Shown: positions 3,882-59,715 of the stretch, piece after piece
How the letters are laid out: every line of letters begins with the position of its first letter
How positions within the stretch are numbered: position 1 is the stretch's first letter
IMG/VR virus record: IMGVR_UViG_3300046747_000237
Location: 1 to 60,075 of that record
DNA: 60,075 nucleotides
Strand: one strand, 5' to 3'
Source of the DNA: a virus
Position numbers and translations under genes: made by a program
Notes under the pieces: model-generated
Seen by the model: only the letters and a program-made list of their open reading frames with translations
Database searches by the model: none
Told to the model about the DNA's origin: nothing

Positions 3882-5114
3882 ATGCGTGTGCGATTCCTGT
3901 CTGTACTGCGTGACGAGGCTGGCGAAGGTGACGGCGGTGGCGACGGCCCCGCAGCAGAGCCGAAAGAGCCAGCCGACAAAGAGCCAAAGCCCAAGGCGAA
4001 AGAACCCGAGCCCGCCAAGCCAAAGACCGTCGGCGACCTGAAGGCCAAGAGCTTCGCCGAGCGCGCCAAAGACGCGACCAAGAACGTCGAGGCGATGCTG
4101 CGCGAAAAGCGCGAGGCCAAGGCAGCTGCGAAGGCGGCTGAGCCGAAGGACGAGCCGGACGACGACGCGCCGGCCAAGCCAGCTGCGAAGGACGAGCCCA
4201 GCGACAAGGCCGACAAGCTCGCCAAGGCGGTCGAGAAGGCTGGCGGCGACGCACCCGACCAGAAGGCCAACGAGACCGACAAGGCGTACGAGGCGCGGCT
4301 GGTGAAGGCGCTACAGGACCTGCGCGGCTCCGAGGTGCAGACCAAGCAGCAGAAGGCCCGCGCGGACGCTGCCGAGCAGAAGGCGGCGCAGCTCGAGAAG
4401 GAAAAGGCCGCGTACGAGAAGCGGCTCGCGCGCGCCAAGACGCCGGAAGAGCGGCTCGAGTTCATGGCGGACGAGATGGGCTGCACGCTCGAGGAGTTCA
4501 TCCGCGACATCAACGACAACAAGACGCGCCTGCCCGGACAGCGCGCCAAGCTCGACCCCGCGGTCCAAGCTGAGATCGAGGCCATCAAGGCAGAGAACCA
4601 GCGCCTGGCCAAGATCGCTGAGGAGCGAGACACAAAAGAGAAGTCAGAGGCTCAGCAGCGCACGTTCACCGAGCACGTGACGCAGGCCGGCAAGTGGCTC
4701 ACCGACAACGCAGCGGAGTTCCCACTGCTGCAGGCGATCCCATGGGCAGCGCAGAACATCGTCAACGGCGCCTACAAGAACGGCGGCGACATGGGCGAGC
4801 CTGCGCGCAAGCTGCAGGAGAGCATCCTCAACGACTTCTTGCCGCTGCTCGACCGTGACGACGCGTGGAAGATGCTCGACGGCAAGCTCAGCAAAGAGGC
4901 CAAGGAGAAGCTCACCAAGCGGTTCGGGGCGCAGGCTGTGAAGGCTGCTGTGGTGACGGTGCCGGAGCATACGCGCAAGCCGCCTAGCAAGGTGACGAGC
5001 GAGGCTGCGGTGCCGGAGAAGGGGGCGAAAGGGATGAGCGAGAACGATCGCAAGCGTATTGCGACGGCGAAGCTCGACCGCTTCTTGGCTGAGCGCAAGA
5101 CCGCCCGCGGCTAA
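3882..5114 (+). CDS. Putative capsid scaffolding protein
   Basis: 410 residues from ATG 3882 (an in-frame GTG at 3876 is less well spaced from the AGAGG ribosome-binding site). Extremely rich in Lys, Glu, Ala and Asp, with long predicted helices and coiled coil (about residues 45-250), as in the procapsid scaffold of podoviruses, which binds the inside of the capsid shell and leaves before or during packaging. Placement directly between portal and major capsid gene supports this. It has its own late promoter. No protease motif was seen, so the scaffold is probably not self-cleaving. Confidence 0.8.
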   Translation: MRVRFLSVLRDEAGEGDGGGDGPAAEPKEPADKEPKPKAKEPEPAKPKTVGDLKAKSFAERAKDATKNVEAMLREKREAKAAAKAAEPKDEPDDDAPAKPAAKDEPSDKADKLAKAVEKAGGDAPDQKANETDKAYEARLVKALQDLRGSEVQTKQQKARADAAEQKAAQLEKEKAAYEKRLARAKTPEERLEFMADEMGCTLEEFIRDINDNKTRLPGQRAKLDPAVQAEIEAIKAENQRLAKIAEERDTKEKSEAQQRTFTEHVTQAGKWLTDNAAEFPLLQAIPWAAQNIVNGAYKNGGDMGEPARKLQESILNDFLPLLDRDDAWKMLDGKLSKEAKEKLTKRFGAQAVKAAVVTVPEHTRKPPSKVTSEAAVPEKGAKGMSENDRKRIATAKLDRFLAERKTARG

Positions 5115-12666: not shown

Positions 12667-15015
12667 ATGGGCAACGGCGGGCTGATCAAAACCAAGAAGG
12701 AGAAGGCTGCCAACGAGCGCAAAAAGCAGCGCGAGGCCGCTGAGAAAGCCGCGCAGACGGCCAACGCCGACAACATCCGCGCCCAGGCGACAGCGGGAGC
12801 AACAGCGGCCACCGCTGAGCGCCAGGCCACGCAGGACGCGCTGGCCGCGACAAGCGCGCAGGCGACCGAGCGCGCGACCCTGGCAGGCAACCAGCGCGAG
12901 TGGGCGCTGGCCGGCCAGTCGAACTCGCGCCAGGAAGCGGCGAACTCGATCGGCGGCATCAACCAGTCTGTCACCGCCGGCAACCAGCTGCGCACCGACG
13001 CGCTGAACGCCAACAACCTGAACACGGCGGCGCAGCGCTCCGCAGACCTGCGCACGCAGGCGCTCGCGGGCACGAACCTGCGCACAGACGCCGCGTCTGC
13101 GAACAGCCTCGCAGATAGCTATCTGAACCGCGTCGACCTGCAGAGCGCGGCGTCGAGCGCGAACCGCCAGGCCGACAGCTACTTGGCTCGCAGCGACCTG
13201 AACCGCAGCGCGGCAGCGGCGAACGCTTCGGCGGACAGCTACCTCGCTCGCAGCAACCTGAACGCCTCGGCGGCCAGCGCCAACAGCCTCGCGGACAGCT
13301 ATCTGGCGCGGTCCAACCTCAACCAGAGCGCGGCGGCGGCGAACAGCTTCCGCACGCAGGCGCTGGCGAACACCGACCTACGGGCAGACGCGGCGGACGC
13401 GAACTACATCCGCAACGAGGCGTTCAACCAGGTCGACATGGAAGGGGCGGCGCAGCGCGGCATCAACATGCGCTCGGCGGCACTCGACAAGCTCAACCTG
13501 GAGAACTCGGCCGTTGGCGCGAATCTGGAGCGCAGTCAGGCGCTTGCAGGCCGCGACCTTACGCGCAACGCGCAGCAAGCCAACCAGCTGCGCACGGACG
13601 CCTACGACTCCACCAACCTGAACGCGCTCGGTGACCAGTCCAACGCGCTCCGGGACGCTGCGCTCGCGGGGGGCAACCTCAACACCGCGGCCAACACCGC
13701 GATCGAGCAGAACGCGGACATCTCCGGGCGCCGCGTCGCCAACAGCATCGGCGTCAACAACCGCGCCGCGCAGGGCCTCGCGACCAGCCTCGGCGAGGGT
13801 AGCGCGCTCGGTCTGCAGCAGGCGCTCGCCAGCGCTGGCCAGGGCAACTCCGACCTGATGGCGGACAACGAGCTCAACCAGGCGCAGCTGGCCAGCGACA
13901 TGCGCTACGGCGCGGCCAACCAGCAGATCAACAACCAGCTGAACACAGCCAACCTCAACGCGAACCAGAAGTACGCGGCGGGGCTCGCGCAGACCAACAA
14001 CAAGCTCAACACGGCCAACCTCAACGCCAACCAGCTCTACACCGGCGCCTACGACCAGTACGGCAACGAGCTGATGATCGCCGACGCGAACGCCAACACG
14101 ACGATGCAGGGCGCGATCACACAGGCCGGCAACAACATCAGCGTCGGCAACGCGAACGCGAACCAGCTGTTCCAGGGAGCGGACGCGCAGGCTGGCTACC
14201 GCATGAGCACGGCCAACGCCAACGCGGACACGGCCATGCAGGGAAGCATCCTGCAGACCGGCAACGAGCTCAACGTGGCCGACCAGAACGCGAACACGTA
14301 CTACACGGGCGCGCGCGACCAGGCCGGCAACGAGATTTTGGTCGGCAACGCCAACGCCGACCGCGCGTACACCGGTGCGCGCGACCAGGCGGGCAATGAG
14401 ATCACCGTCGGCCTGTCCAACGCTGATCGCACGCTCCAGGGCGCGCAGTACCAGGCGGGCAACGAGATCTCAGTCGGCAACGCGAACGCGAACCGGAGCT
14501 ACCTCGGCGCGAGCGAGAGCGCGGCCAACAACATCACAGTTGGCAACGCGAACGCCGACCGCTCCTACACGGGCGCGCGCGACCAGACCACCAACGTGCT
14601 GAACACGGCAGACCAGAACGCCAACCAGCTCTATTCGGGCGCGTATGGTCAGTCGCTGAACGCGATTGGTGTGGCAGGCGACAACGCGAACTCGCTCTTC
14701 CAGGGCTCGACCGCGACCGCGCAGGCGTACGGCAACCTCTACGGCAACGACATCAACGCGACCAACTCGGCCAACAACTGGGCCAGCGGTGCGTACGGAC
14801 AGCAGTACGACACGCAGTCTCAGCTCGCCAGCAACTCGCTCGCCAATCAAAACCAGTGGCTCGCCAATCAGCAGAGCGCGTACGGGCAAGAGGTCATGGG
14901 TCAGCAGGCGGCGGCCAATCGAGCGACCACCCAGCGCGGCCAAAACACGCAGCTCGCGGGCGACATCATCCAGTCGACCTCCAACATCGCCGCCGCCAAC
15001 TCTGGCAACTCGTAA
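12667..15015 (+). CDS. Repeat-rich Ala/Asn virion protein (putative internal/ejection protein)
   Basis: 782 residues. After a basic coiled start (about 1-90), residues 90-330 carry a roughly 20-residue repeat (ANSLADSYLARSNLNASAAS and variants). Residues 420-690 carry a different repeat of about 22 residues built on GNEI.VGNANADR.Y.GA. Trp, Cys and Pro are nearly absent. Long regular repeats point to an extended solenoid or helical rod. Its place directly before two further giant late proteins fits internal virion proteins that podoviruses eject to span the cell envelope. No family recognised. Confidence 0.6.
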   Translation: MGNGGLIKTKKEKAANERKKQREAAEKAAQTANADNIRAQATAGATAATAERQATQDALAATSAQATERATLAGNQREWALAGQSNSRQEAANSIGGINQSVTAGNQLRTDALNANNLNTAAQRSADLRTQALAGTNLRTDAASANSLADSYLNRVDLQSAASSANRQADSYLARSDLNRSAAAANASADSYLARSNLNASAASANSLADSYLARSNLNQSAAAANSFRTQALANTDLRADAADANYIRNEAFNQVDMEGAAQRGINMRSAALDKLNLENSAVGANLERSQALAGRDLTRNAQQANQLRTDAYDSTNLNALGDQSNALRDAALAGGNLNTAANTAIEQNADISGRRVANSIGVNNRAAQGLATSLGEGSALGLQQALASAGQGNSDLMADNELNQAQLASDMRYGAANQQINNQLNTANLNANQKYAAGLAQTNNKLNTANLNANQLYTGAYDQYGNELMIADANANTTMQGAITQAGNNISVGNANANQLFQGADAQAGYRMSTANANADTAMQGSILQTGNELNVADQNANTYYTGARDQAGNEILVGNANADRAYTGARDQAGNEITVGLSNADRTLQGAQYQAGNEISVGNANANRSYLGASESAANNITVGNANADRSYTGARDQTTNVLNTADQNANQLYSGAYGQSLNAIGVAGDNANSLFQGSTATAQAYGNLYGNDINATNSANNWASGAYGQQYDTQSQLASNSLANQNQWLANQQSAYGQEVMGQQAAANRATTQRGQNTQLAGDIIQSTSNIAAANSGNS

Positions 15016-31486: not shown

Positions 31487-32199
31487 GGGGACACCGTCGA
31501 GGTATCACGCCCACCAGGCGTCCCCACATTCGCCCAGGTCCGCCCCTTGATGGCGTCGCCGATTGCCCAGCGTGAAACGCCGAAGCGCGCGCCGACCTGC
31601 GCGTAGGACTGCCCCATCGCAACCAACTCGCGCACCTTGGGGATGTCGCTCTCGGCAAGCTTCGACGCGCCCCGAGCGCGCGGGAAGTCGTGCCGGCGCC
31701 TGTCGGCCGCGTTCTCACTCTTGGTGCCCCAGCGAAGGTTTACCGGCCATCGGTTGTCGCCGCGAACGCCGTTGTAGTGGCGGCACTCCATGCCAGCCGG
31801 GCAAGGCCCCTCGAACGCCTCGAGCACGAGCACGTGGACGAGCTTCTTCGCCTTGGCGCCACCCGAAAGCATCAGGTCGACGCGAGCGTAGCCAGCCTTC
31901 GAATCGGGCTTGAGCACCAGCCCGGTCTCGCCGTTGCGCACCGTCCCGTAGGCGCTGACCTCGTAGCGCGTGCCGGCAACAGGCTTCCAGCCCTCTGGAA
32001 TGGGCTGTGACAGACGCTGTGACAGAGCAGGCGCTAGATCGTGCTGGCTGGGGCCATCTGGCGCCGCGCAGTCTGCCGCGTTTACCGGGCCTTTTGCCGT
32101 AAAACTCGGCGCTCCCACCAGGAGTCGAACCTGGGACCTTTCGCTTAGGAAGCGACTCGCGTTTAAGTCTTTGGCGTCGTTTCGGGGTCTGTTTTCCAT
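31483..32199 (-). CDS. HNH endonuclease with NUMOD4 and C-terminal HTH, reading through attP
   Basis: 238 residues if started at ATG 32199. About residues 66-90 (EGWKPVAG..YEVSAYGTVRN) match NUMOD4; residues 115-165 (HVLVLEAFEGPCP, CRHYNGVRGDNRWPVNLRWGT) form an HNH nuclease of the homing type; a helix-turn-helix (SYAQVGARFGVSRWAIGDAI) ends it. The first 60 residues are not conserved-looking and residues 14-33 are a translation of the attP tRNA segment. No better start codon is visible, so the true N-terminus may have been lost or may use a rare start. Integration would cut the N-terminus off. Confidence 0.75.
   Translation of the reverse strand: MENRPRNDAKDLNASRFLSERSQVRLLVGAPSFTAKGPVNAADCAAPDGPSQHDLAPALSQRLSQPIPEGWKPVAGTRYEVSAYGTVRNGETGLVLKPDSKAGYARVDLMLSGGAKAKKLVHVLVLEAFEGPCPAGMECRHYNGVRGDNRWPVNLRWGTKSENAADRRRHDFPRARGASKLAESDIPKVRELVAMGQSYAQVGARFGVSRWAIGDAIKGRTWANVGTPGGRDTSTVSP
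32110..32156 (-). other. attP core: 3' portion of tRNA-Arg(CCU)
   Basis: On the minus strand 47 nt fold as the 3' part of a tRNA: anticodon arm GTCGC-TTCCTAA-GCGAA (loop with anticodon CCU), variable region AGGTC, T-arm CCAGG-TTCGACT-CCTGG, acceptor 3' strand TGGGAGC and a following G. The D-arm and 5' acceptor strand are absent. Lying 53 nt from the integrase stop, this is the expected attP; recombination would rebuild the host tRNA-Arg(CCU) gene. The exact core limits need the host attB. Confidence 0.85.
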
Positions 32200-32208
32200 G
32201 GCTGAACC

Positions 32209-33372
32209 TCAGTTGAGAGAGGAGGCTGAAGACTGGGCTGTAACAGCGGCTGTAACAGGGTCGATCCTGGTGGCCGCCGCGATCTTGGAAACGGCGCTGG
32301 CCATGCTCACGCGGTCGAGGTGGCCGTAGACGGCGCGCACCATCACCGTGCTCTCGTGGCCCATCAGCTCGGCGCAAACGCGCTCCGGGACGCCTGCCTG
32401 GCACAGCCACGAGCAGAAGGTCCGCCGCAGGTCGTTGGGTGTCACTCGGGCGATTCCAGCGCGCACGCAAGCCCTGGCAAGGTCTCGGACGCACGATCCG
32501 TCGGTCCACTCTGGGAAGGGCTTGGCGAGCACGCAGCGGCGGCGCAGCACCTCGGCAGCCTCTGGGTTGACGGGCACCAACCGGTCGGCGCCGTCGGTCT
32601 TGGTCCCGCGGACCCGAAGCTCGAGGCGCTTGGCGTCGAAGTCGTCTGGCTGCATGTCGGAGAGCTCGGACTTGCGTAGCCCGAGGTGGCAGTACGCGAT
32701 GACGTAGTCCCGTCGATCTTGCCGGTCGGCACGGCGGCGCAATGTCTTCGGAACGCGCTGGTTGCGTGTCGGCACGGGGTTGGGAGCAAGCGCGTCGAGT
32801 AGCGCCTCGTACTCCCCGCGGGTCATCCAGCGGTCTCGCGGCTTGTAGACGCCCGTCAGTTCGTCGGGAAAGTAATGCGTCGGGCTGCGGCTCGGGCGGT
32901 ACAGGCCCAGCTTTTCCGCGCGTCGCATCGCCTGGGTGAGGGTCTTGATCTCCTTCGCGACCGTATGCCGGTGGGCACCATCCTTGATGCGGGTCCGCAT
33001 GTAGCTGGTGGTGTCCGCGAGCGTGACCGATGCCAGCGGCGTGCTGCTGCCCAAGTGCTCGATCAGGTGCCGAGCGTGGTAGGTGCTCGCGCGGACCGTT
33101 GCCGGCGCGCGCTTCGCGTCCCGCTGGTACTTCAGGACGAGATCGAGGGCGGTGCTCACCGTGAGCCTCGCTTCCTCTTTCCAACCGGCGTCAACAACAA
33201 AGCGTCGCTCAATTTCTCGAGCGGCAAGCTTCGCGGCAGCCGGTTCGGTTTGCTTCGTCGACTCGTGCCAACGCTTCCCGTCGACGCCTCGTCCACAGCA
33301 CCAGAGGAACCGGGTTCCCTTCTTTTTGTAGATGCTCGGCACTGGTACTCGTTGCCTCCGCTTTTGAACCAC
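32209..33372 (-). CDS. int: Tyrosine recombinase integrase
   Basis: 387 residues from GTG 33372; an internal GTG at residue 11 (VPSIYKKKG) is an alternative. N-terminal arm-binding region (about 1-60), SAM-like core-binding domain (70-160), catalytic domain 180-360. Catalytic residues: Arg233 in HLGLRKSEL, Lys258 in GTKTDGADR, Asn313-Asp-Leu-Arg316 (the usual His of HxxR is Asn), His339 in LMGHES and the nucleophile Tyr349 in VYGHLD. It integrates and excises the phage at the adjacent attP. Confidence 0.93.
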   Translation of the reverse strand: MVQKRRQRVPVPSIYKKKGTRFLWCCGRGVDGKRWHESTKQTEPAAAKLAAREIERRFVVDAGWKEEARLTVSTALDLVLKYQRDAKRAPATVRASTYHARHLIEHLGSSTPLASVTLADTTSYMRTRIKDGAHRHTVAKEIKTLTQAMRRAEKLGLYRPSRSPTHYFPDELTGVYKPRDRWMTRGEYEALLDALAPNPVPTRNQRVPKTLRRRADRQDRRDYVIAYCHLGLRKSELSDMQPDDFDAKRLELRVRGTKTDGADRLVPVNPEAAEVLRRRCVLAKPFPEWTDGSCVRDLARACVRAGIARVTPNDLRRTFCSWLCQAGVPERVCAELMGHESTVMVRAVYGHLDRVSMASAVSKIAAATRIDPVTAAVTAQSSASSLN

Positions 33373-43956: not shown

Positions 43957-44318
43957 GAGCCTGTGACCGCTGCAAGCGCGCCGGTGCCACGCACCGCTAC
44001 CTCACGCGCGAGATGTGCCCGAGTTGCTGCAGCGCGTTTGACGCGTGGTGGGAGCGCGGGCGCAAGAGCGCTGGGCAGCCCCCACGAGCGACCGTAGGCA
44101 CGCCCTGGAAGCTCATCAGCGGGTTGATCGAGAAGCACGGCAGCGTGACCGCAGAGCAGTACGCGGCGCTGTCTGGGCAGGTCGGCAGAGCGCCCTACTA
44201 CGCGCTCCGCTCGTTCGTCCGCAAGGGCTGGCTCGAGTCCGACCGGATGGCGGACGGGAGCGTCCAGTTCTTCTTCTCCACGTCGCGCTGGCAGCGGCCA
44301 GCGGAGGCCGCCGAATGA
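43953..44318 (+). CDS. Zinc-finger/winged-helix protein
   Basis: 121 residues, ATG 43953. N-terminal CDRCKRAG ... CPSCCSA (4-27) zinc finger, then a winged helix (WKLISGLIEKHGSVTAEQYAALSGQ, YYALRSFVRKGWLESDRM). Positioned directly before the replication initiator, possibly involved in origin recognition or regulation. Confidence 0.65.
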   Translation: MRACDRCKRAGATHRYLTREMCPSCCSAFDAWWERGRKSAGQPPRATVGTPWKLISGLIEKHGSVTAEQYAALSGQVGRAPYYALRSFVRKGWLESDRMADGSVQFFFSTSRWQRPAEAAE

Positions 44319-45199
44319 GCACCAAAGCGGCACCCTGGGCGAAGCTCTGGTGGGACTGGTACGCCACCCGCTCGCACGTTGGGCTGAGCGGAATCGCGCT
44401 CGCACTCGGCCCCGCGCTGATGCTCCTGGGTCGCGCTTCAAAGCGTCACTGTGACGCCTCCGGTGACGCATGCGGTGACATGGACGGTGACGGCGTTTGG
44501 ATCGTCACGGGCGCCGGCAAGCCAGTCACCGCCGCTTACCTCGCCAGCGTCGTCCGCTTCTCGGTACCCGAGGTAGAGGCCGCTCTCGCGGAGCTCGTCG
44601 AGTCCGGGACGCTCATCGTAAGGACTGACAAAGCTTACGGATTCCCCAACTTCTGGCGCTACCAAGAGACCGCTGCGGCGGCTCGTACCCGCAAGTATCG
44701 GAGCAAAGAAAAGCGTCACAGTGACGGTCACGGTGACGCTTCACGTGACGGGTCCGGTGACGACAAGAGGACAGAGGTAAGAGGACAGAGTGTGAAGAGC
44801 GCGGGCGGGGGCGCGAAGCCTTCGGCCGGACTCGACCAGTCCGAGGCCGAGCGCGTCGCGACTCGCGGGCTGATCCGCCGCGAGTTCTCGGCCCGCTACG
44901 AAGCCGCGCAGGAGACCGGGTGGACGCAGTCCAGTTCGCCCGACGTGGACACGCTCGTGACGTGGCTGCTGACCGTGAAGTCAGACCGCTCCGGAGCCTG
45001 GCGCACGACGCTGGACAACTTCTTCGCCGACCCGTTTGTGCGGTCGATCCACTTCTCGATCAGCCACCTGGCGAAGCACCCGGACAAGTACCGCCAGCCC
45101 CGCGAGATCGCCCGCGCCGCGCCCAACGGCGGCATGTCCGACGCCGAACGCGAGCGCCGCTACCCGACCCGCACCCTCGACCAGGCGAGCTACAAATGA
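44315..45199 (+). CDS. Replication initiator / replisome organiser
   Basis: 294 residues, ATG 44315. N-terminal winged helix (LGPALMLLGRASK, VTAAYLASVVRFSVPEVEAALAELVESGTL) as in phage O/DnaT-like proteins, an Asp/Gly-rich linker, and a C-terminal part (YEAAQETGW, TLDNFFADPFVRSIHFS) typical of helicase-loading organisers. It directly precedes the DnaB-type helicase gene. Its coding sequence carries two iteron clusters (44445-44508, 44715-44761), which encode the odd D-x-x-G tetrapeptides. Confidence 0.8.
   Translation: MSTKAAPWAKLWWDWYATRSHVGLSGIALALGPALMLLGRASKRHCDASGDACGDMDGDGVWIVTGAGKPVTAAYLASVVRFSVPEVEAALAELVESGTLIVRTDKAYGFPNFWRYQETAAAARTRKYRSKEKRHSDGHGDASRDGSGDDKRTEVRGQSVKSAGGGAKPSAGLDQSEAERVATRGLIRREFSARYEAAQETGWTQSSSPDVDTLVTWLLTVKSDRSGAWRTTLDNFFADPFVRSIHFSISHLAKHPDKYRQPREIARAAPNGGMSDAERERRYPTRTLDQASYK
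44445..44790. other. Probable replication origin: two iteron clusters inside the initiator gene
   Basis: Cluster 1: GTGAC at 44451, 44463, 44475 and 44487. Cluster 2: GTGAC at 44721, 44733, 44745 and 44757. In both the period is exactly 12 bp, and each begins with an inverted copy 6 bp upstream, giving GTCAC-N-GTGAC palindromes (44445-44455; 44715-44725; also 44727-44737). Next to cluster 2 is a purine-rich stretch with the direct repeat AGAGGACAGAG (44766, 44780). Iterons in the initiator gene followed by the helicase gene match the lambda O layout. Confidence 0.75.
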
Positions 45200-46470
45200 C
45201 CGAGCAGCAGCAACTCGCAGACCTCGACGTCGAAGCCGCGCTCGTCTCGGAAGCCCTGCGCCGCTACGACCGCTACGTCGCTCGTGGGCTCTCCCCAGCA
45301 GACTTCTGGGGCGAGCAGAACAAGCTCGTCCTCGAAGCCTGCGCAGCAGTCTGGGACCGCGGCGACCCAGTCAGCGTGGGCTCGGTCGCCCTCGAGCTGC
45401 AGCGCCGCGGGCTCAAGGTCGGCGCCTACCCCGGCGAGCGTGGCGTGGCCGAGTTCGCGCTGAACGGCGCAGCGGCGGTGCCAGACGCCGACCGGCTGCG
45501 AGAGCTCGCGAGACTCCGTGCGGTCGTGGACGTCTCGCTGCGGGCCGCTCTCCAGGCTCAGCAGCAAGACCTGTCCGGCGCACTGGCGACGCTCGCAGAG
45601 GTCGACCAGCTCGGCGCCAGCAAGCCCAGCACGCGCACGGGCGGCGACCTCGTGGACCGCGTGCTGAGCGGGCTACGCAACCCCGAGGAGTTCGACCAGC
45701 GTCGCGTGTACCTCGGGCTGCCAGGCTTTGACCGGGCGATCGGCAAGCTGCCCGTGGGCTCGATGCTCGTGGTCGCAGCAGACTCGAACGTCGGCAAGTC
45801 GCTTGTCGCTCTCGAACTGCTCGTGGGCTGCGCCGAGGCGAACGTCTCGTGCGGCTTGATCAGCCTCGAAGACCCCGAGGACATCACCGCCTCACGGCTG
45901 CTCGCTCGCTACACGCAGGGCATCTCGAGCCGCCAGATCTTGCAGGGCCGCGTCTCAGCCGACCCGAACGTACAGCTCGACCTGAGCGGCGCAGCAGCGC
46001 GTGTGAAGCGCCTCGGTGACCGGCTGCTGTTCGAAGACTGCACGGGCGAGAGCGAGCTTGAGGTCTGCGCCGCCATGAGCCGCATCGCAGCGCGCGGCGG
46101 AAAGCTCGTGGTCGTGGACTACGTGCAGGAGATCGAGGCCAGCAAGAAGCAACAGGACCGCCGCAACGAAGTGCGCTGGGTGGCTAAGCGGCTCAAGACG
46201 CACGCCAAGCGCCTCGGCGTTGTGCTGGTGCTGGTCAGTCAGATCGCGAGGCCCAAGGACGGCGACGAGTTCAAGCCGCCCTCGAAGCACGCCCTCAAAG
46301 AGAGCGGCGACCTGGTCAACGCAGCCGAGGCGATCGTGGTGCTCTGGCGCGAGTACGCAGCCGACGACGCGCCTATCTTCGCACGGCTGCAGAAGGGCAA
46401 GAGCGGCGGGCTCGGGCTCACCTGGGAGATGCGACGCAACACCGCCAACGGCGCGCTGGTGGAGCCATGA
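45196..46470 (+). CDS. DnaB-type replicative helicase
   Basis: 424 residues, ATG 45196. N-terminal DnaB-like region (about 10-110), linker, RecA-type motor from 170: Walker A AADSNVGKS (194-202), LISLEDPED (221-229), Walker B VVVDYVQEI (305-313), LVSQIARPKDG with the sensor Gln, and the C-terminal arginine-finger area. Unwinds DNA at the fork. Overlaps the initiator stop (ATGA), so the two are made together. Confidence 0.92.
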   Translation: MTEQQQLADLDVEAALVSEALRRYDRYVARGLSPADFWGEQNKLVLEACAAVWDRGDPVSVGSVALELQRRGLKVGAYPGERGVAEFALNGAAAVPDADRLRELARLRAVVDVSLRAALQAQQQDLSGALATLAEVDQLGASKPSTRTGGDLVDRVLSGLRNPEEFDQRRVYLGLPGFDRAIGKLPVGSMLVVAADSNVGKSLVALELLVGCAEANVSCGLISLEDPEDITASRLLARYTQGISSRQILQGRVSADPNVQLDLSGAAARVKRLGDRLLFEDCTGESELEVCAAMSRIAARGGKLVVVDYVQEIEASKKQQDRRNEVRWVAKRLKTHAKRLGVVLVLVSQIARPKDGDEFKPPSKHALKESGDLVNAAEAIVVLWREYAADDAPIFARLQKGKSGGLGLTWEMRRNTANGALVEP

Positions 46471-57813: not shown

Positions 57814-59715
57814 TCAGATGGTGATCGCGTAGTAGCTCGAGATGTACGAGTTCACGGTCGCGCGCTCCCCAGACGTCAGCACGCGGTTGCAGATGATGAG
57901 CTCGGCAACGCCCATCGCGCATGGGTTCTGCGAGCCGATGCGCAGCGTCAGCGCCGCGTTCCCGGTGTCTGGCGTCAGGCCGTAGTTGGCGGTGACGTCA
58001 GCCTGGCTGGAGACAGAGAGCGTCGAGTCAGGCGTCTGCGCCGAGCCCATCCGCAGGTTGACCGATCGCGGTGTGCCCGTGGTGTTGCTCGAGGCACTTG
58101 CGACAAGCACTGCCGCGGTGGACGCGTCGTCGACCTCCACGTTGATGACGCCGGTCGTATGATCGTTGTAGAGGGTGAGCCCAGCGCCGAGCGCGGTAGC
58201 CGCGACGTTGGTGGTCAGGTACTCGTTGAAGTTGCCGTCTGTCGTGACCTTGAGGACGAAGAAGAGCTCGCAGTCAGACCCATCGTGCAGGAACTTCCAC
58301 TGCGCCGTAGTGCGGCTGCTCGTGAGGTACACGCCCGACGTGAACGGGATGACCAGACGATTGTTCATCGTCGACTCAGTCGCCGCAGCACCAGGCCGAA
58401 GCCCCGCCGTCGCCTGATCAAACGTGTGGCCGCTCAGCACCAGGTCCTGCAGCTGGCTGACCTTGGAGCTGACCTCCGTCCGCGTGTCGGCGCGGACACG
58501 AGAGAACGCGAGCGCGCTGACCGCTGCGCTGAGGTCGCTGATGCCCGCAGCAGAACCCGTCAGCCCCGCCTGTGCGCCCGCTCCTGTGCCTGCGATGCGT
58601 TGCGCGCCCGAGGCCGCCCCGGTCAGCCCCGACTGCGCTCCGGCTGCCGTGCCGGCAATGCGCATCGCGCCGCTCGCCGCCCCGGTCAGGCCGCTCTGTG
58701 CTCCAGCGCCTGTGCCCGCGAGACGCAGCCCGCCAGCAGCCGCGCCCGTCAGGCCGGCCTGTGTGCCTGCTCCAGCGCCGCTGATCGCGCCAGCGCTCGA
58801 CGTGCCACCGGCGGCGCCTACGAGGCCCGCTTGGGCGCCTGCAGCGGTGCCAGCGATGCGGAGGCCGCCTGTCGCGGCCCCGGTCAAGCTTGGCCGCACG
58901 CCAGCGCCAGTGCCGCTGATGGACGAAATCGCGCCGGCGGTACCCGTAGCTGCCCCAACAAGCCAGGCGTCAGTCGAGTAGCGCAGCACGTTCGAGAAGG
59001 TGCCGACGAAGTTCGTGGGACCGCTCGACGTCGACAGCCTGCCGATGCCCATCGTGCCGAGCGGCCAGACGAAAGCGGAGCCGAGGTCGGTAGCCCCGTT
59101 GCCCTCGGTGGCGCCGGAGATCGTGATCCTGCCGATCGTCGTGTCGACCTCGACCGTGATCGCCTGGCCGAGCGAATACTCGAAGAACGCGAGGTTGCCG
59201 TTGCCCGCCGAGGCCCCGCTGTCCCAGGTGTAAATGCAGGTGTTGCCGTGGACGTTTGAGTAATAGAGGTCGAGCCCGTTCTGCGTTGCCCCGCCGATGT
59301 TGAACAGCTGGTACGTGACGCCGCTCGTGCGCGCGGACTGCGTGAACGTGAACTTCCACCGTCCGCTGCGCATGAACGACGGCGCCACCGTCGTGCTCGG
59401 CGGCTGCAGCGCGGTCAGGTCGAGGCCGAGCGAGTAGCCGTCGCCCGACATGAGCAGGCCGGCTGCCGTGCCCGCGAGACGCATCGCTCCCGCGCCGGCT
59501 CCCATGAGCCCCGACAAAGCACCCGCTGCCGACCCGCTGATCGGAGGCGGGTGGTACGGCACCGGGTAGCAGTCGAGCGACCCCTCGAGCAGCTCGTTCT
59601 CCACCTCGTCATCGACAGTCGTCTCGATGCCCGCAGCGGGCACGACAACGCCATCCAGGCGCACGGTGACGCCGGGCTTGGGGACGACGAGGATAGGAGC
59701 CGGGCTGCGCGCCAC
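57814..59715 (-). CDS. Gly/Ala-repeat tail adhesin with LamG-like module
   Basis: 633 residues from GTG 59715. Residues 1-48: attachment module shared with the 54548 protein and resembling DUF2635. Residues 92-250: a jelly-roll-like region. Residues 62-86 and 253-393: a 21-residue Gly/Ala repeat (GAQSGLTGAASGAMRIAGTAA). Residues 402-633: concanavalin-like module ending VLTSGERATVNSYISSYYAI. Likely a fibre or adhesin next to the glycosidase protein. Starts 2 nt after the stop of the gene spanning the contig join. Confidence 0.72.
   Translation of the reverse strand: MARSPAPILVVPKPGVTVRLDGVVVPAAGIETTVDDEVENELLEGSLDCYPVPYHPPPISGSAAGALSGLMGAGAGAMRLAGTAAGLLMSGDGYSLGLDLTALQPPSTTVAPSFMRSGRWKFTFTQSARTSGVTYQLFNIGGATQNGLDLYYSNVHGNTCIYTWDSGASAGNGNLAFFEYSLGQAITVEVDTTIGRITISGATEGNGATDLGSAFVWPLGTMGIGRLSTSSGPTNFVGTFSNVLRYSTDAWLVGAATGTAGAISSISGTGAGVRPSLTGAATGGLRIAGTAAGAQAGLVGAAGGTSSAGAISGAGAGTQAGLTGAAAGGLRLAGTGAGAQSGLTGAASGAMRIAGTAAGAQSGLTGAASGAQRIAGTGAGAQAGLTGSAAGISDLSAAVSALAFSRVRADTRTEVSSKVSQLQDLVLSGHTFDQATAGLRPGAAATESTMNNRLVIPFTSGVYLTSSRTTAQWKFLHDGSDCELFFVLKVTTDGNFNEYLTTNVAATALGAGLTLYNDHTTGVINVEVDDASTAAVLVASASSNTTGTPRSVNLRMGSAQTPDSTLSVSSQADVTANYGLTPDTGNAALTLRIGSQNPCAMGVAELIICNRVLTSGERATVNSYISSYYAITI
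58537..58959 (-). repeat. 63-bp coding tandem repeat (21-residue Gly/Ala unit)
   Basis: About six units of 21 residues (one of 24) inside the 57814 protein; the best two copies differ at few positions at the protein level. An isolated seventh copy is at 59458-59532. The regular Gly/Ala spacing suggests packed glycine-rich helices or an extended stalk; such repeats can change copy number by recombination. Confidence 0.75.

Follow-up and report, generated by a model that had tools for sequence, protein, structure and literature searches.

Two GTGAC arrays at 12-bp steps inside a putative phage replication initiator gene point to a probable in-gene iteron origin

We analyzed a stretch of viral DNA of 60,075 nucleotides (IMG/VR record IMGVR_UViG_3300046747_000237, positions 1 to 60,075; hereafter the window) and found two arrays of the pentamer GTGAC, repeated at 12-bp steps, within the gene of a putative replication initiator. 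The gene overlaps that of a DnaB-type helicase by 4 bp. This region is probably an in-gene origin of the iteron type, to which the protein encoded by the same gene would bind; we infer both the origin role and the binding from sequence. The features are as follows.

44315-45199, + strand: putative replication initiator / replisome organiser, 294 aa, with a winged-helix N part, a disordered linker and a C-terminal part; weak profile matches
44445-44491, + strand: iteron array 1, GTCAC-N-GTGAC followed by 12-bp steps, four GTGAC and one GTCAC; codes for RHCDASGDACGDMDGD
44495-44674, + strand: winged-helix core, residues about 61-120, presumed DNA-binding part; secondary structure E-H-H-E, block pLDDT 56-82
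44612-44671, no strand assigned: the 60 bp of lowest stability in the gene, located between the arrays (nearest-neighbour stability, top 0.4% of the window); second candidate opening region
44715-44761, + strand: iteron array 2, GTCAC-N-GTGAC with an inner GTCAC and 12-bp steps, four GTGAC and two GTCAC; codes for RHSDGHGDASRDGSGD
44762-44800, + strand: purine-rich tract (GACAAGAGGACAGAGGTAAGAGGACAGAG...) following array 2; candidate opening/loading element
45196-46470, + strand: DnaB-type replicative helicase, 4-bp overlap with the initiator; DnaB_C 2.9e-27, phrog_19 4.7e-48, TIGR03600 3.2e-33

The GTGAC copies start at positions 44451, 44463, 44475 and 44487 in array 1 and at 44721, 44733, 44745 and 44757 in array 2. 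One base ahead of the first GTGAC of each array lies an inverted GTCAC (44445 and 44715), and a third GTCAC is found at 44727. The initial annotation had reported the GTGAC positions and the exact 12-bp steps, with which our recount of the window agrees, and had correctly translated both arrays as D-x-x-G-type peptides. Nowhere else in the window is any 5-mer repeated fourfold with a constant period in the range of 6-30 bp. Given how often GTGAC occurs in the window, chance would produce 1.9e-7 fourfold arrays of it at 12 bp in 60 kb, counting both strands, and 2.4 Mb of first-order Markov sequence contained neither a fourfold nor a threefold array. No pentamer of the gene is more strongly enriched over the remainder of the window than GTGAC/GTCAC (14 copies in both orientations, 1.8 expected, P 9e-9). 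CRP-type sites, which face inward with a 6-bp gap, were considered and dropped; the sites of the window face outward with a 1-bp gap.

The identity of the 294-aa protein was deduced from profile searches and structure prediction. The best family match was PF09681 (Phage_rep_org_N) with an E-value of 0.0037 and 17.7 bits, under the curated cutoff of 23.3, accompanied by phrog_5968 (replisome organizer, E 0.0072) and phrog_186 (E 0.019). A search of NCBIfam gave no match for this protein. As the PF09681 score is below its cutoff and NCBIfam is silent, we call the protein organiser-like only: the weak but consistent matches suggest this much, and it is not a filed member of PF09681 or TIGR01714. 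AlphaFold gave a poor model (mean pLDDT 50.7), with winged-helix-like residues 61-120 mostly at pLDDT 69-82. Small winged-helix proteins made up most of the profile matches in the PDB (E 4e-4 to 0.4), and a fold search of the PDB with the model retrieved mainly winged-helix proteins, transcription regulators, none of which reached an E-value of 0.001. The winged-helix N part is predicted at low confidence; the assignment of the adjoining DnaB-type helicase is clear. In the model array 1 corresponds to a low-confidence loop in the winged-helix domain region (residues 45-58) and array 2 to a predicted disordered linker (residues 130-216). No phage in INPHARED has a recognisable relative of this protein, and single-protein scans of IMG/VR and genome contigs found none either; relatives were supplied by a scan for the DNA pattern.

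One of these relatives is close. The protein encoded by L147 (IMGVR_UViG_3300021437_000067) is 58% identical to that of the window over residues 6-150, and the coding sequences share 63% nucleotide identity in the N part. L147 retains all eight GTGAC and both leading GTCAC; the inner GTCAC at 44727 is not conserved. Array 1 of L147 is longer by exactly one 12-bp unit and one GTCAC, i.e. it has grown by whole units. Three further proteins (L117, L040 and L043) align weakly with the window protein at the wing and a YQET/TQET motif (BLASTP E 0.006). L117 and L040 each have two blocks at comparable positions, of which the first reads VTVTRDACVTVT and the second, in L117, SHALSHSDSHAPSH; the gene of L043 is cut off before the first block.

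The purine-rich segment with repeats that had been noted after array 2 is real. It contains a 21-nt purine run with at most two interruptions, which is equalled in 0.7% of 150-nt windows on either strand, and TRF detected a period of 7 at 44765-44790. L147 has a nearly pure purine tract of 57 nt in the same place. No AT-rich tract of the lambda type lies beside the arrays of the window. By analogy with the AT-rich tracts of lambda and SPP1, the purine-rich tract may serve as an opening or helicase-loading tract.

Related arrays were sought in IMG/VR with the pattern GTCACNGTGAC(N7GTGAC)2, in which two GTGAC at 12-bp steps come after GTCACNGTGAC. Of the 15 stretches retrieved, ten lie in initiator genes, which represent several types of protein (L095 and L138, which are one gene, L133, L134, L137, L145, L135, L140, L143 and L144), and five are low-complexity or unrelated. 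The same pattern matched 37 stretches in 85,000 bacterial genomes; these were mostly noise, with two initiators among them (L154 and L158). Nine proteins of a ten-protein panel matched PHROG families annotated as replication initiation protein, replication protein, DnaD-like or replisome organiser, and the tenth, L117, had no informative PHROG match; initiators outside the panel were classified by eye from the protein sequence. The control word CTGAC in the same layout occurred in four stretches, one of which, a plain 6-bp repeat, lay in an initiator-like gene, and none of the four was a comparable diverged array in an initiator. A plain scan of IMG/VR for four GTGAC at 12 bp was discarded, as it proves nothing without a filter for spacer diversity: simple 12-mer repeats in unrelated genes dominate its output. 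On the reverse strand of L045, near position 4947, at least six GTGAC at 12-bp and shorter spacing are found at the end of and beyond a short open frame, outside any recognised initiator; this cluster is possibly a split initiator or a separate origin.

Since sampling by pattern is circular, we collected initiators by homology to the winged-helix region alone, which yielded 80 initiators, 70 of them non-redundant (phrog_2447-type); prophages drawn at random by family supplied too few genes. Of the 70 initiators, 16 contain four or more GTGAC/GTCAC within a span of 110 bp, a density that flanking control segments reach at a single locus. By the same criterion GTAAC/GTTAC scored in four initiators and no controls. 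The best pentamer of the initiator linker exceeded that of the flanking segments overall (Mann-Whitney P 6e-22), although 54 of the 70 have no GTGAC array. In-gene arrays are frequent in this group, and the word varies, being GTGAC in about a quarter. CGTTA, which is part of the word GTAACG, ranks top in six of the 70. In Gordonia phage Zipp, 13 copies of GTGAC/GTCAC lie in the gene of gp57, which is annotated as a replication initiation protein. Further members of this initiator family carry enriched words of their own, for instance CGAAC in 16 copies in Gordonia phage Phistory gp86 (L122), and words including AGCAA (10 copies), CGTTA and GAATC in L227, L235 and L290. The sampled genes suggest a constant layout in which the iteron word differs from lineage to lineage. 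A period-5 run of at least 18 nt lies near the arrays in 34 of the 70 phrog_2447-type initiators (L215-L294), and in flanking control segments at none of the 70 loci. The examples that were read are mostly (CCCGA)n or (CCCGT)n and encode TRPDPTRPDP-like peptides; AT-rich phages have a GATATAGATAAAG-like tract. Neither 5 nor 7 is a multiple of the codon length, and such periods again point to DNA.

The one-base variant GTAAC takes the same place in phages of Streptococcus, Listeria and Enterococcus. A scan for it gave 28 stretches, at least nine of them in replisome organisers of PF09681 appearance (SNVTSNVTVTQSNATDID). L321 and L143 encode related proteins with two blocks in similar places, made of GTGAC in L143 and mainly of GTAAC in L321. 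In orf20 of Staphylococcus phage phiPV83 an array of the GTGAC type (GTCACGTGACGTCACGTGACaGTCAC) directly follows the winged-helix part, and phiEf11, SM1, Javan240 and Listeria LMC have GTAACGTTAC arrays at this point; Bacillus phage 022DV001 has no such array. The organisers of phiPV83, phiEf11, SM1, Javan240 and LMC resemble that of the window in having a GTRAC array followed by a purine-rich tract. They differ in that their single array is shorter, the second tract is AT-rich and the protein is far more distant. We define a GTRAC 12-bp array class by at least four GTRAC half-sites within about 110 bp, located in an initiator gene, with same-strand neighbours mostly 12 bp apart. The window belongs to it. 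Over 20 genes the spacing of same-strand neighbours is 12 bp in 76 cases, 11 bp in 20 and 10 bp in 10.

The initial annotation had left undecided whether the linker peptide was shaped by a function of the DNA or the reverse. Selection on the peptide, for instance for an acidic or metal-binding D-x-x-G linker with the DNA repeat as a by-product of tandem duplication, would agree with the single frame used by all sites in the window and in L147, and with the D kept at every fourth residue. The codons speak against it. The eight sites encode CD, GD, GD, GD, SD, GD, RD and GD, all written NGT GAC, and NGT codons are rare among the remaining genes predicted for the window (GGT 8.2% of Gly, CGT 8.1% of Arg, AGT 4.2% of Ser, TGT 10% of Cys). 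The joint chance of NGT at all eight sites is about 5e-10, a value that overstates independence if the copies share ancestry. Elsewhere in the window 23 of 223 occurrences of the same dipeptides (10%) contain GTGAC. Between the window and L147 all 16 identical residues inside sites share their codons, compared with 31 of 67 outside (P 3e-5). Where residues at the sites do change, the residue before D is affected and GT stays constant: only codon position 1 is substituted (GGT to TGT or CGT, CGT to AGT), and GTGAC remains intact. This is the opposite of synonymous divergence of GTGAC under a constant peptide, which the initial annotation had named as evidence against its proposal, and it favours the DNA side of the alternative. 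Related or analogous, distant initiators moreover read the same DNA word in other frames as VT, RD or SH repeats, and gaps between neighbouring sites are often 5, 7 or 11 bp and hence not only codon multiples. In all 32 initiator genes with a cluster, copies occur in more than one strand/phase state. GTGAC is barred from the third frame because TGA would result; its remaining two frames and all three frames of GTCAC are used. Selection of the peptide is accordingly a very improbable explanation. We consider it equally improbable that the arrays lack a function and are a tandem repeat of recent date or a mutational artefact. Most arrays of four GTGAC at 12 bp in IMG/VR are indeed plain tandem repeats in unrelated genes. 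In the window, however, the spacers have diverged within and between the copies around an exact 5-mer, both arrays are kept in L147 at a nucleotide identity of 63% in the N part, and arrays are enriched in initiators that were sampled by homology. Selection of the arrays as DNA, and not as peptide, is thus well supported, and the sequences come close to settling that the arrays function at the DNA level.

The arrays could alternatively be an operator, i.e. sites within the gene at which its own product or another regulator controls transcription. Winged-helix proteins are commonly repressors, and transcription regulators are what the fold search returned. We nevertheless regard an operator in place of an origin as unlikely: the arrays lie in the coding region, twice, and not at a promoter, and they recur in initiator genes of several families with strand-biased tracts after them, as in known origins. 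Autoregulation and origin function are, besides, compatible with each other. An in-gene iteron origin of the lambda O or SPP1 gene 38 kind is characterized by short, regularly spaced repeats inside the initiator gene that are conserved as DNA independently of the peptide, and both properties are found here.

Based on these observations we infer the following course of initiation at the arrays. The product of 44315-45199 would bind to the GTGAC half-sites with one subunit per 12 bp along each array, and the GTCAC partners would give rise to divergent pairs. The two arrays would fold the easily melted intervening DNA and the purine-rich tract into an initiation complex. This complex would open the DNA and hand the neighboring DnaB-type helicase onto it, so that replication would start at the arrays. 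The linker peptides would be a by-product, as the predicted loops may tolerate whatever the DNA encodes.

The position of the gene was compared with the composition of the window. The cumulative GC skew has its minimum at 45,982. Third-position skew is higher on the right than on the left, by 0.15 for genes on the + strand (-0.10 to +0.05) and by 0.13 for genes on the - strand (+0.06 to +0.19). A shift on both strands agrees with an effect of replication and is suggestive, in a linear record that may be a fragment and in which gene content differs. No DnaA boxes were found near the initiator gene. Elsewhere in the window, GCTGTRACAG occurs four times in two 12-bp pairs (32004 and 32016, 32237 and 32249; 0.29 expected). 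These pairs (32004-32258) flank a tRNA-like stretch near 32112-32180, in which ARAGORN found no whole tRNA, beside an integrase gene on the - strand (32209-33372, phrog_1). The stretch 32004-32258 looks like an attP with integrase arm sites, and the phage is therefore probably temperate. Long tandem repeats at 14301-14586 (units of 66/132 bp) and 58559-58763 (63 bp) probably belong to structural or fibre-like proteins; the genes concerned, 12667-15015 and 57814-59715, have no PHROG match.

Phage lambda has its origin inside the initiator gene O; the iterons are bound by the initiator and the helicase is delivered next (PMC7466680). O genes of lambda and Stx phages differ in the number of iterons, which adds amino acids (PMC7466680). 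As a way of working, the lambda O gene is an apt precedent with a different sequence, as had been suggested at the outset: its iterons lie mid-gene, and the growth of the L147 array by units parallels the variation among O genes. We found no sequence relation between the two, and ori-lambda differs in its iteron sequence, its single array and its AT-rich opening tract; the window has 5-bp GTGAC words at 12 bp, two arrays and a purine-rich tract that contains GC. Closer precedents by family than lambda O are SPP1 gene 38, TP901-1 ORF13, Tuc2009 Rep and 80alpha ORF20. In SPP1, oriL is located in gene 38 and its direct repeats are bound by gp38 (PMC6316719). Like the window protein, G38P is a replisome organiser with direct repeats in its own gene and a phage DnaB-type helicase; SPP1 differs by an AT-rich unwinding element and a separate loader, gp39 (PMC6316719). 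TP901-1 ORF13 and Tuc2009 Rep are summarised in PMC8965321 as replisome organisers with the origin in the gene. A deletion of ORF20 in 80alpha could not be complemented in trans, and ORF20 together with ORF21 drove plasmid replication (PMC5499656). TP901-1 orf13 and 80alpha ORF20, the two precedents that we checked and the best tested among those considered, contain no GTRAC arrays and have a different type of N-terminal sequence from the window, so that both support the layout but not the word.

In-gene origins are thus of a known kind. New to this search are the GTRAC 12-bp class and its spread over several initiator families, as well as an additional array within the part of the gene that encodes the winged helix, and the tract next to the arrays. 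Descriptions of GTGAC or GTAAC phage iterons were not found in the open-access literature, which is weak evidence as subscription papers such as the TP901-1 and r1t originals lie outside this scope. GTRAC at 12-bp steps could be a half-site code by which a large part of the winged-helix initiators of tailed phages of Gram-positive and Gram-negative hosts recognise their DNA, located inside the gene, read in any frame and followed by strand-biased repeats of 5-7 bp. Linkers such as VTSNVTVT, SHTPSHT, GDxxGD, TRPDPTRPDP and KREEGRGKREEEKEK would then be translated origin DNA. We give this generalization an even chance.

If such a shared code holds, the sequence by itself could reveal the origins of very many uncultured phages, and for many phages known solely from metagenomes the start of replication would be placed within about 100 bp. 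Odd linker peptides of annotated replication proteins would be explained as translated DNA sites. The gene would offer a clean natural case of a putative DNA-binding site that governs a coding sequence, with frames and codons as built-in controls, and a curious repeat would become a testable signature of an origin.
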